Translations under genes and position numbers: made by a program
Notes under the pieces: model-generated
What the model saw: the letters and a program-made list of their open reading frames with translations, nothing else
The model's database searches: none
Told to the model about the DNA's origin: nothing
NCBI GenBank assembly: GCA_016839745.1
Contig: JAEOTS010000080.1
Span: 1 to 64,000 of the forward strand
Direction of reading: 5' to 3'
Origin: Promethearchaeota archaeon
Lineage (GTDB): Archaea; Asgardarchaeota; Lokiarchaeia; Sigyniarchaeales; SOKP01
DNA: 64,000 nt
Shown: positions 58,508 through 64,000 of the stretch, piece by piece
How positions within the stretch are numbered: position 1 is the stretch's first letter
Layout: the number at the start of each line of letters is the position of its first letter

Positions 58508-59281
58508 TTAAATTTCTAAAATATTATTGATGGTTTCTTTTATTTTTTGAAAGCTTATAGAATTCTCAGAAATGTCAATAATAGGTTTACCCTCTAAATC
58601 AAATTTAGTTAGAAGTTCATCTTCAGGTATTAATGTGAGGACTGGTAATTCGTATTCTCCAAGCTTACCAAGAATATTTGCTATCTCACCTTTCACTCTA
58701 TTGATTATTATCCCTATTCTTTTATAATTTGTGAACTTTTTAGCGCTCTCACTGATTGATTTTGCCGTTTCTACGCTCCTTAAAGAAATATCGGTCACGA
58801 TTAGGAGTATATCGACAGAATGTATTACCATTCGATTAATTTGTTCAAGACCCGCTTCGCAATCTATCAAAACGACATCAAAATCGCTAGAAATCGACTC
58901 TATAACTTTTCGAAGCAACATATTTGAAGGACAGAAGCAGCCTGGGCCTTCGGGTTGACCAATTGAAAACAAGCTAAAATCTTTACTTTCTTTTATAGCA
59001 TTATAAACCTTGAAATCTATTGTCTCAGCTAATGATTGGAAATCTTCCTTTTTACTAATTGTGTTATCAATTAAATCAGCTCTTATTTTTTCGAGACTTA
59101 TCTCTGGGACTAATTTAACCATTTGACTAAGATGTGGATGGGTTGGATCAGCATCAATCAATAGTAGTTTATACTTACAGGATGTGGAAATGACCTTAGC
59201 AATAAGGGTAGTTACAATTGTTTTGCCTACGCCTCCTTTTCCGGCGATAGCGACTATAAGTGGGGTTTTTTTCAGCTCCAT
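58508..59281 (-). CDS. cooC: CooC-type P-loop ATPase for nickel insertion
   Basis: 257 residues of the MinD/ParA/SIMIBI class with deviant Walker A GKGGVGKT (14-21), LLIDADPTHPHL, and VLIDCEAGLEQINR. The CFC pair (C115, C117) in GQPEGPGCFCPSN matches the CxC motif with which CooC dimers bind a nickel ion for CO dehydrogenase. It follows, 31 bases downstream on the same strand, a stand-alone acetyl-CoA synthase domain protein. Its client could be that protein or a CODH/ACS elsewhere. Confidence 0.8.
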   Translation of the reverse strand: MELKKTPLIVAIAGKGGVGKTIVTTLIAKVISTSCKYKLLLIDADPTHPHLSQMVKLVPEISLEKIRADLIDNTISKKEDFQSLAETIDFKVYNAIKESKDFSLFSIGQPEGPGCFCPSNMLLRKVIESISSDFDVVLIDCEAGLEQINRMVIHSVDILLIVTDISLRSVETAKSISESAKKFTNYKRIGIIINRVKGEIANILGKLGEYELPVLTLIPEDELLTKFDLEGKPIIDISENSISFQKIKETINNILEI

Positions 59282-59312
59282 TATATGATTCCATTTACAT
59301 ATTTTTTTAAAT

Positions 59313-60074
59313 TTAAATCTCTTCTCGAGAAACTAACACTTGTTTGACATTGTAGCATTCTTCTTGATATGGGCATATTTCACAACCCCAATCGTAGTCA
59401 CAATCAATTCTTTTTCTCCATTCGTCAATTTTTTTCTTCCATTTCTCCTTAACTTTAGATAATATATCTGAAGAGAGCACAACAAATTGTTCAATAGAAC
59501 TTGGATAAGAATTAATAAAGATAACTTCTACTGATTTAATTAAATCTTTGAATTTTTGTTTATACAAATTAATAATCACATTACCTAAGAACTCGAACGA
59601 AAACCCTTTCTGGAGTGCGGATGTACTTATTCTACACCAAAATCTACGAGGTATTGTTCGAATTGAAAACCCTTCGATTCCATTTGATATAAAATTCAAT
59701 TGTCTTAGTTCGTCTTCATTTATATGAGTATTATCTTGAATTCCTATTAATAATATAATCCCAAAATCAATAGCCGGCTCTTTAATCTTATTTACTTCCC
59801 TTCCTAATAACGAGATTTTTCCATGATTGATTAAATTAATCTCCTTAATTGGAATTACTATCGAAAATGATTTTTTATTCATGCCACCAAGCTCTAAACC
59901 AGTTTCCTCTTCAAGTATTATTTCCTTGTATTTATTCAATCCTATTTTGATTTTGAAATTAGTTAATGAATTGGTTTGGTTTAAGCGTGATGGATAGGAA
60001 AATAAAGTTTTACCACTTTTCTGTTCTTGTTCTAAGAAATCTCTTATCTTTTCAATATTAGTTTTATTTTCCAT
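59313..60074 (-). CDS. Stand-alone acetyl-CoA synthase (CdhC) C-terminal-domain-like protein
   Basis: 253 residues. TGLELGGMNKKSFSIVIPI, GKISLLG, FISNGIEGFSIRTIPRRFWCRIS and QKGFSFEFLGNVII follow, in the same order, the segments of the ACS beta subunit just before its A-cluster (ELGG..PSFEL, HxFxNYAEG, DIIWIRIS, GFRLKHIGE). The end holds cysteines C225, C231, C234 and C240 (GCEICPYQEEC), like the A-cluster CTLC. It lacks the ferredoxin-like and methyl-binding parts of full ACS. Nickel binding or sensing is plausible but not shown. The adjacent CooC strengthens the link. Confidence 0.65.
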   Translation of the reverse strand: MENKTNIEKIRDFLEQEQKSGKTLFSYPSRLNQTNSLTNFKIKIGLNKYKEIILEEETGLELGGMNKKSFSIVIPIKEINLINHGKISLLGREVNKIKEPAIDFGIILLIGIQDNTHINEDELRQLNFISNGIEGFSIRTIPRRFWCRISTSALQKGFSFEFLGNVIINLYKQKFKDLIKSVEVIFINSYPSSIEQFVVLSSDILSKVKEKWKKKIDEWRKRIDCDYDWGCEICPYQEECYNVKQVLVSREEI

Positions 60075-60272: not shown

Positions 60273-60992
60273 ATGACTTTGCATTCTGAAGAGGAGGAAA
60301 AAAATCCAACCTGTCACCAATGTGATAGTTTTAAATATTGTGTTATTGGCAGAGTGAATAACAAAAAAGATAACTGTCCAATGAAGATTTCTCCAGAAAT
60401 TGAGAAAGAAGCTCTTGAATTGTACGAAAAAGATGATTTCGTAAAAAAATCGACTGGCGTAGCTTCTATTGTAGAAGCTAAAGGATATATTAAATGGCCG
60501 AGATTAAAAGATACAATTGAATACGCTAAAGGAATGGGTTATAGCAAATTAGGTTTAGCATTCTGTGTAGGATTACACGCTGAAGCAGAAGAAATTGCTA
60601 AGATTTTAATTGATTATGGTTTTAAGGTTGTATCGGTTTGCTGTAAAACAGGTAGCGTCCCAAAAACAAAAGTAGGCGTCCCTGAGGAATATACAATGTT
60701 TTCTAAGACGGGATACCCTATCGGAACGATTACTTGTAATCCTGCAGCCCAAGCATTGTTATTTAATAAGACTAAAACAGACCTAAATATTATAATCGGT
60801 TTATGCGTAGGACACGATATAACCTTTACTCATTTATCTAACGCACCAGTTACTACATTAATCGCAAAAGATAGATCCTCGCCTCATAATCCAGCCGCGT
60901 GTTTGCTCAATCACTATGGCAAAACTTTCTTTTCAATGGATCTTAGTGAGATGAAACGGGAAGAATTTGAAAAGAAGAAGAAAACTGGATAA
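60273..60992 (+). CDS. DUF1847 metal-binding protein
   Basis: 239 residues. The N-terminal CHQC, C23 and C35 give a cysteine cluster; then YAKGMGYSKLGLAFCVGLHAEAEEIAKIL and VSVCCKTGSVPK, CNPAAQA and GLCVGHD follow the DUF1847 pattern. The role is unknown; the cysteines suggest Fe-S or metal binding. It is rightward and divergent from the CooC/ACS-like operon. Confidence 0.8.
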   Translation: MTLHSEEEEKNPTCHQCDSFKYCVIGRVNNKKDNCPMKISPEIEKEALELYEKDDFVKKSTGVASIVEAKGYIKWPRLKDTIEYAKGMGYSKLGLAFCVGLHAEAEEIAKILIDYGFKVVSVCCKTGSVPKTKVGVPEEYTMFSKTGYPIGTITCNPAAQALLFNKTKTDLNIIIGLCVGHDITFTHLSNAPVTTLIAKDRSSPHNPAACLLNHYGKTFFSMDLSEMKREEFEKKKKTG

Positions 60993-62981: not shown

Positions 62982-63431
62982 ATGCATGAATTTTCAATGG
63001 TGAATCAAATATTTAAGAGGTGTTTAGAAGTGGCAAGACAAAATAACGCCACCAAAATTAGCGAAATCAATATTGAAGTGGGAGATTTCGCATTAATTGT
63101 AGAAATATACGCTCAACAAGCTTTTGACATCTTAAAAAAAGGAAGTATTGCAGAAAATGCAATATTGGATATTAAACGAACACCTGGTGTGATTCATTGC
63201 AATTCCTGTCAACAAAATTCGAAAATTTGGTTCAGTAAAGAAAAAGAAAAAGCAGCAAATGAAGGAAGATTGGAGAAATATGAAAAGTACGAAAAAGAAG
63301 TTGCTGAAAAATCGTTGCTCGAAGCCGATCCTAATTTAGGAACGAATATTTTTCATTGCCGAAAATGTAACAGTTCTAATACTACTCTAATTGAAGGAAA
63401 AGGAATTGTAATAAAGGGTATTCGAACTTAA
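62982..63431 (+). CDS. hypA: Hydrogenase nickel incorporation protein HypA
   Basis: 149 residues beginning MHE, the nickel-binding N-terminus (His2). Zinc ligands are C73 and C76, then C126 and C129, with 49 residues between the pairs against about 12 in bacterial HypA and a shorter insertion in Thermococcus. The insert is charged and helical (KEKEKAANEGRLEKYEKYEKEV, in parts). HypA delivers nickel to [NiFe]-hydrogenase via HypB. No hydrogenase is in the window. GAGG is at the ribosome-binding position. Confidence 0.85.
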   Translation: MHEFSMVNQIFKRCLEVARQNNATKISEINIEVGDFALIVEIYAQQAFDILKKGSIAENAILDIKRTPGVIHCNSCQQNSKIWFSKEKEKAANEGRLEKYEKYEKEVAEKSLLEADPNLGTNIFHCRKCNSSNTTLIEGKGIVIKGIRT

Positions 63432-63487: not shown

Positions 63488-64000
63488 TTAAGATACATCT
63501 ACAGAACTTTCAATTCGCTTGATAAATTGATCTAATCTCTTAGGATCATCAAGATTTATATTAATAGCGCCATTTGGACAAACTCGTTCACAACGTCCGC
63601 ATCCTAAACACCTTTTCTGATCGATCACAGCCTTCCCGTTAATGATATTTCTGCCTACGAAGCAACACACATCAAGACAGATACCACATCCGATACACTT
63701 ATCTGAATCTACTTCCACAGTTAACCCCTCCATCCGTTTGAAACTCGTATAAAGCATCGCAGTAGAATTCTGCATTATTTTTCCGTTGATACAGCAGCAG
63801 GGACAACAGAAGCACATGGAAAGGAAATGCCCCGTATCCTCAACGCTAAGCGAAGTTGATTCATAAGCGAATCGACCAAAAGTTGGTACTAATCCACTTT
63901 CTATGGCTTTTTTAACATGTGTTTTTGCTTGTTCTCGAGTTATAAATCGGCCTTTTTCAGGAGCATGTTTTATATTCTTAACATCATCGCCTAAATACAT
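63488..64000 (-). CDS. Cys-rich two-cluster ferredoxin-like protein (5' end possibly outside window)
   Basis: At least 170 residues; the ATG at 63998-64000 touches the edge, so the true start may lie beyond it. A cysteine-dense patch CFCCPCCC occurs near residue 63. It is followed by two [4Fe-4S] motifs, CIGCGICLDVC, which lacks the usual following proline, and CLGCGRCERVCP, then a C-terminal helix. Proteins of this shape occur with methyltransferases and other anaerobic redox enzymes. Function is not known. Confidence 0.65.
   Translation of the reverse strand: MYLGDDVKNIKHAPEKGRFITREQAKTHVKKAIESGLVPTFGRFAYESTSLSVEDTGHFLSMCFCCPCCCINGKIMQNSTAMLYTSFKRMEGLTVEVDSDKCIGCGICLDVCCFVGRNIINGKAVIDQKRCLGCGRCERVCPNGAININLDDPKRLDQFIKRIESSVDVS

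Follow-up and report, generated by a model that had tools for sequence, protein, structure and literature searches.

An acetyl-CoA synthase middle domain standing alone with its own CooC-type ATPase is linked to HGD-D genes rather than to CODH/ACS in Asgard archaea

What does an archaeon do with a 253-residue protein that resembles one part of acetyl-CoA synthase (ACS) and is encoded next to an ATPase of the CooC type? This question is raised by a stretch of 64,000 nucleotides of a Promethearchaeota genome (contig JAEOTS010000080.1; hereafter the window), for which a preliminary description, made from the sequence alone, had proposed a reduced ACS in an operon with a CooC carrying a CxC motif. 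Both reading frames are present as described (Table 1). The ACS-like protein, which we call mini-ACS, is encoded by the first gene transcribed, and 31 bp separate its stop codon from the start of the CooC gene. An LRR gene and a DUF1847 gene are the neighbors of mini-ACS in the window. The latter (60273-60992) was dropped as a candidate part of the system, since DUF1847-type genes lie near mini-ACS in only a few close relatives. The window also encodes, ~3 kb from mini-ACS, a HypA-like protein of 149 aa (62982-63431, plus strand) that spans the 112-position HypA model and exceeds its length; it was dropped likewise, no HypA being found near mini-ACS at other loci. Next to the window's end, which it runs past, lies a ferredoxin-domain protein (63488-64000, minus strand) with an unusual FCCPCCC motif; by eye, the N-terminal region of its full-length relative (L054:3585-4757) resembles SCP2.

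Table 1 Features of the mini-ACS/CooC locus in the window.
Feature	Position	Strand	Basis
mini-ACS: ACS middle domain on its own, followed by a Cys4 tail, 253 aa	59313..60074	-	PF03598, AlphaFold2 model and PDB matches
CooC-type MinD/ParA-family ATPase, 257 aa	58508..59281	-	Best PDB match CooC1 (3kje); Pfam CbiA
ACS middle (A2) domain and following linker helix, mini-ACS residues 33-216	59427..59978	-	VIA-align
mini-ACS Cys4 motif, C225-x5-C231-x2-C234-x5-C240	59355..59402	-	Invariant in 48 homologues; HMMER alignment to 1mjg
Deviant Walker A KGGVGK, CooC residues 15-20	59222..59239	-	Sequence; kept across the mini-linked CooC set
CooC CxC metal site, C115-F-C117 in GPGCFCPSN	58931..58939	-	Aligned with GSQCYCREN of CooC1

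Sequence and structure searches agree on the origin of mini-ACS. Its sole Pfam match is CdhC (PF03598; 55 bits at a cut-off of 24, E = 1e-14), and the NCBIfam models of ACS beta match it down to 2e-15, as partial matches far under their full-length cut-offs. All significant hits of a PDB sequence search were ACS chains (best E = 8e-9), and the three others were insignificant (E ~0.5). An AlphaFold2 model, built on an alignment with 47 relatives, reached a mean pLDDT of 83 and a pTM of 0.79, and Foldseek matched it to 23 chains at E < 0.001, 23 of which were ACS. VIA-align superposed the model on ACS with Z-scores of 19-20 and an rmsd of 2.5-3.1 Å over 170-179 residues (19-21% identity), compared to Z = 2.6 for the best non-ACS row. 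On the strength of these four lines of matches we reject a chance similarity, and the homology to ACS proposed in the preliminary description is upheld by both profile and fold. The aligned part of the model (residues 33-216) corresponds to residues 314-495 of Moorella ACS and 4-177 of M. thermophila ACS. Given that A2 comprises residues 4-151 and A3 residues 186-397 of the M. thermophila protein (PMC11474084), the match covers A2 and the connecting helix. The catalytic A3 domain yielded no PF19436 match in the Pfam search of mini-ACS, whose reading frame stops 13 residues past the last cysteine. Mini-ACS is therefore the ACS middle domain, and the A-cluster domain is not included. Trp418 of ACS, which we take to be a residue of the CoA site, is not conserved in it.

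Downstream of A2, mini-ACS carries a tail of four cysteines (C225, C231, C234 and C240), all invariant in 48 Loki/Hel homologues, with the consensus R-x-D-C-x3-W-x-C-x2-C-P-Y-x3-C. The cysteine pattern is as noted earlier. A HMMER alignment to 1mjg, which ends at chain residue 509, places C231 and C234 on Moorella Cys506 and Cys509; both residues are [4Fe-4S] ligands in the A-cluster, and Cys509 in addition forms the bridge to the proximal Ni. After this CxxC the cysteine spacing departs from that of ACS and the CGC of the distal Ni is absent, so that of the full A-cluster ligand set (four [4Fe-4S] cysteines and the CGC) only the CxxC aligns. The AlphaFold2 model has a pLDDT of ~50-60 in the tail, too low to establish a cluster geometry. 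Of a segment said to run "before and into the A-cluster", what is present is A2, the linker helix and, from the A-cluster, its first CxxC; the rest of A3 is missing, in line with the absence of the remaining ACS domains that the same description had pointed out. In the Asgard family f17, mini-ACS is without the first cysteine of the motif. These f17 proteins (L043, L044, L045, L158) have an extra cysteine near the C-terminus and group with Helarchaeota-type forms, a grouping that, with the congruent CooC tree, hints at a transfer of the pair.

The tail raises the possibility that mini-ACS is itself catalytic, holding a Ni-containing Fe-S centre on its four cysteines that CooC would load, and carrying out acyl-CoA or methyl/CO chemistry with A2 binding CoA. 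The CxxC at the position of Cys506/Cys509, a CooC of its own with a CxC, and gene partners that act on acyl-CoA (see below) fit this proposal. We nevertheless consider it unlikely, as the A3 domain and the CGC for the distal Ni are both missing, sequence spacing offers no equivalents of Cys518 and Cys528, and there is no substrate channel partner. Judged by its sequence, mini-ACS lacks the complete A-cluster ligand set that is needed for the role of an ACS-type enzyme, and a catalytic role would have to obtain ligands from another subunit.

The second protein of the pair finds its closest PDB relative in CooC1 of Carboxydothermus hydrogenoformans (E = 1.8e-15). Its GKGGVGK sequence has the deviant Walker A of MinD-type P-loops. 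The CxC aligns with the CYC of CooC1, and GCFC does not vary among the mini-linked CooCs, which is a match at the level of the motif. In CooC1, Cys112 and Cys114 bind Zn at the dimer interface, where Ni, one per dimer, competes (PMC6006190). The ATPase and mini-ACS are strictly co-inherited, and their functional pairing is strongly backed. Among 70 genomes, 46 contain both mini-ACS and the mini-type CooC, 21 neither, none CooC only and three mini-ACS only (p = 5e-15), i.e., the mini-type CooC occurs in 46/49 genomes with mini-ACS and in 0/21 without. In G006 and G049, two of these exceptions, the contig stops at mini-ACS on the side where CooC would be expected; in G079 the contig end is ~0.3 kb away. 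Maximum-likelihood trees of the two proteins show the same three main clades, and separate mini-ACS from full ACS and the mini-linked CooC from CODH-type CooC; an apparent two-change result in the tree comparison stems from one unlabelled mini row (L039). We conclude that mini-ACS and its CooC are one old paralogous pair, found in Lokiarchaeia and one other Asgard family. Second copies of mini-ACS without an adjoining CooC were seen at L059, L060, L062 and L057 (the L057 copy being partial); the first three have in their vicinity, encoded on the other strand, a BadF activase and genes of the HGD-D family, whose members resemble 2-hydroxyacyl-CoA dehydratase and benzoyl-CoA reductase.

Could the gene be a decaying fragment? 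Compared with their orthologues in G008, mini-ACS has a dN of 0.12 and a dS of 0.67 (dN/dS ~0.19) and CooC a dN of 0.065 and a dS of 0.82 (dN/dS ~0.08). Changes at third codon positions dominate in both genes (first/second/third: 31/24/80 in mini-ACS, 20/14/87 in CooC). Together, these ratios and the third-position bias indicate that both are maintained as proteins. An ACS fragment or pseudogene was rejected in view of this purifying selection, the constant length, the invariant new cysteines and the clade of its own.

Homology to ACS and CooC suggests a further role, in which mini-ACS would imitate ACS and, as an adaptor of maturation, deliver CooC and nickel to CODH or ACS. We mapped full ACS (by PF19436) and CdhA in the genomes scored for mini-ACS. 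These are MAGs, incomplete and dominated in sampling by one family, and the Fisher tests count genomes as independent although they share ancestry. Contigs with names that carry mini-ACS belong to Lokiarchaeia/Lokiarchaeota and Helarchaeota MAGs, which places the host of the window in the Lokiarchaeia group of Asgard archaea; a contig scan found no relatives outside Asgard, its patterns being tight enough for distant members to escape. No significant association links mini-ACS to full ACS (p = 0.25 for 83 genomes, p = 0.05 for 70 genomes, p = 0.3 to 0.65 for those with a completeness of at least 90%). Mini-ACS occurs without full ACS in five genomes of that completeness (G007, G045, G047, G053, G060), and nine genomes have full ACS without mini-ACS. 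A weak association with CdhA (p = 0.002 for 83 genomes, 0.06 for those at least 90% complete) speaks for the adaptor. Against it, the presence of mini-ACS is independent of full ACS, no CODH/ACS operon was found at the mini-ACS loci examined or mini-ACS at the CODH/ACS loci examined, and other CooC-like proteins (~30% identical) are kept in most genomes, with or without mini-ACS. We thus regard a maturation adaptor as very unlikely, and the occurrence pattern does not support mini-ACS as an obligate CODH/ACS accessory. The genome of the window (89% complete) has CdhA on another contig (C38); full ACS was not found there, possibly owing to incompleteness.

Two side observations concern CODH/ACS itself. 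In the near-complete Lokiarchaeia G007 and G053, the latter a single contig, CdhA is present (in G053 at G053:C1:65156-67423) and a C-terminal ACS domain was not found. The Helarchaeota-type genome G082 encodes a divergent, third CdhC of full length (451 aa, PF03598 and PF19436; L046:7234-8586, minus strand); the distal-Ni CGC of this protein reads CRY, and it branches below the other ACS sequences.

The gene neighborhoods point elsewhere. We clustered the ORFs around ~40 mini-ACS loci and identified them by Pfam and NCBIfam. Four loci of one genus (L066, L067, L068, L070) share the run SCP2-like, HGD-D, HGD-D, GlcD, GlcF, mini-ACS, CooC, and two others (L035, L037) the run BadF activase, mini-ACS, CooC. 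At L043, mini-ACS follows three HGD-D and two BadF genes, with CooC and a URO-D gene nearby, and at L201 CooC is divergent from a BadF gene. Relative to control loci of the same phylum, gene densities per 100 kb near mini-ACS are far higher for BadF (3.3 versus 0), HGD-D (5.8 versus 0.5), GlcD (5.8 versus 0.2) and GlcF (6.0 versus 1.2). Wherever it lies in the genome, an HGD-D homologue is found in 46/49 genomes with mini-ACS and 6/21 without (p = 4e-8, Fisher test ignoring kinship). The contrast recurs inside genera (g5, g8, g12, g13), e.g., in G040 against G027/G035. The six genomes with HGD-D and no mini-ACS are G009, G013, G018, G026, G031 and G044, and some HGD-D operons contain activases without CooC. 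The HGD-D orthologue in the genome of the window (77% identical) lies on a different contig (C56), as does an SCP2-like gene. The HGD-D and BadF partners retain conserved cysteines, and the HGD-D proteins score under the equivalog cut-offs. In summary, the mini-ACS/CooC pair is linked to HGD-D systems and not to CODH/ACS; the tie to CODH/ACS implied by the preliminary description gives way to HGD-D, BadF and GlcDF partners.

The same gene runs bear on two further readings. A small protein with a Cys-rich tail might be a sensor or regulator of metal, CO or redox state, an option raised earlier that gained no support: Pfam and Foldseek revealed no DNA-binding or signalling domain in mini-ACS, and the gene is co-oriented next to metabolic enzyme genes in several lineages, which makes a sensor highly improbable. 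Alternatively, the CooC-like protein could be an ATP-driven reductase in the style of NifH, BchL or CfbC, with an inter-subunit Fe-S cluster at the CxC and low-potential electrons passing through a Cys4 cluster of mini-ACS to HGD-D, in place of BadF or in addition to it. It has the P-loop fold class of these proteins, the linked enzymes require ATP-driven reduction, and in the runs at L066-L068 and L070, HGD-D and CooC occur without a BadF activase. Since the CxC is the arrangement of CooC, NifH-type proteins having two widely spaced cysteines, and since BadF activases are often also present, we judge a reductase to be quite unlikely.

We tentatively favor, as a little short of probable, that mini-ACS and CooC serve an HGD-D-type redox system of Lokiarchaeia as a dedicated metallocentre accessory module, derived from ACS beta and CooC and no longer part of CODH/ACS. 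In ACS, the corrinoid Fe-S protein (CoFeSP) docks to the middle domain, for which an interaction with CoA has also been proposed (PMC12289521). By analogy, the A2 domain of mini-ACS could dock an HGD-D/GlcDF partner or its CoA thioester. The Cys4 tail would hold a [4Fe-4S]-type or metal-loaded centre that reuses the A-cluster CxxC position. At its CxC, the CooC dimer would bind Ni or a different metal, and it might load the Cys4 centre at the expense of ATP, as CooC does for CODH. From there, metal or electrons may pass to the HGD-D enzyme. A free A2 domain, a metal-binding tail, a CooC of its own and acyl-CoA redox partners are most readily taken together as a metal-accessory or electron-relay subunit of the HGD-D system, and mini-ACS may serve as a metal chaperone or an acyl-CoA-handling subunit. 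A bolder version, which we hold to be unlikely, would make this a new Ni- or Fe-S-dependent acyl-CoA redox system of Asgard archaea, in which A2 with a rebuilt, CooC-loaded site belongs, as a subunit, to an enzyme of the benzoyl-CoA-reductase/2-hydroxyacyl-CoA-dehydratase type.

ACS is regarded as one of the most ancient enzymes. In the ACS proteins with known structures, A2 and A3 are used together; here, A2 is found alone, in a widespread old Asgard lineage. We found no earlier description of stand-alone or ACS-like CdhC proteins in the open-access literature, and papers on the benzene "Magic" cluster, which includes GlcDF-like proteins, report no ACS-like or CooC-like gene. The pair suggests a metal-dependent component for HGD-D/benzoyl-CoA-reductase-like enzymes, in which none is known, and gives Lokiarchaeia one more candidate metalloenzyme system. 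With mini-ACS, the function of A2, be it the docking of CoA or of an Fe-S protein, can be studied on an isolated domain. For genome annotation, a CdhC/PF03598 match is in itself no proof that an Asgard archaeon possesses ACS.

Three known systems frame these results. With ACS/CdhC (M. thermophila 9c0s/9c0t, Moorella 1mjg/1oao), mini-ACS shares the A2 fold, the linker helix and the first A-cluster CxxC; unlike ACS/CdhC, it has neither A3, the CGC nor the full ligand set, it lies outside CODH/ACS operons, and its N-terminal helix and Cys4 tail are both new. The HGD-D family (HadBC, BzdN/O, double-cubane-cluster proteins), with its BadF-type activase, includes the partner genes of mini-ACS, and we know of no established HGD-D/BadF family member with an ACS-like or CooC-like component. 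With CooC, the nickel-insertion ATPase of CODH (CooC1, 3kje, and the related AcsF), the ATPase of the window has the deviant Walker A and the CxC in common, whereas the mini-linked CooCs differ from CODH-type CooCs of the same phylum in their separate clade, their mini-ACS partner and the GCFCP[SA]N around the CxC. A2, joined to a new Cys4 site and accompanied by a CooC of its own, looks like a recruit to a different, ATP-driven acyl-CoA system, and an ancient part of carbon fixation seems to have been reused in Lokiarchaeia.
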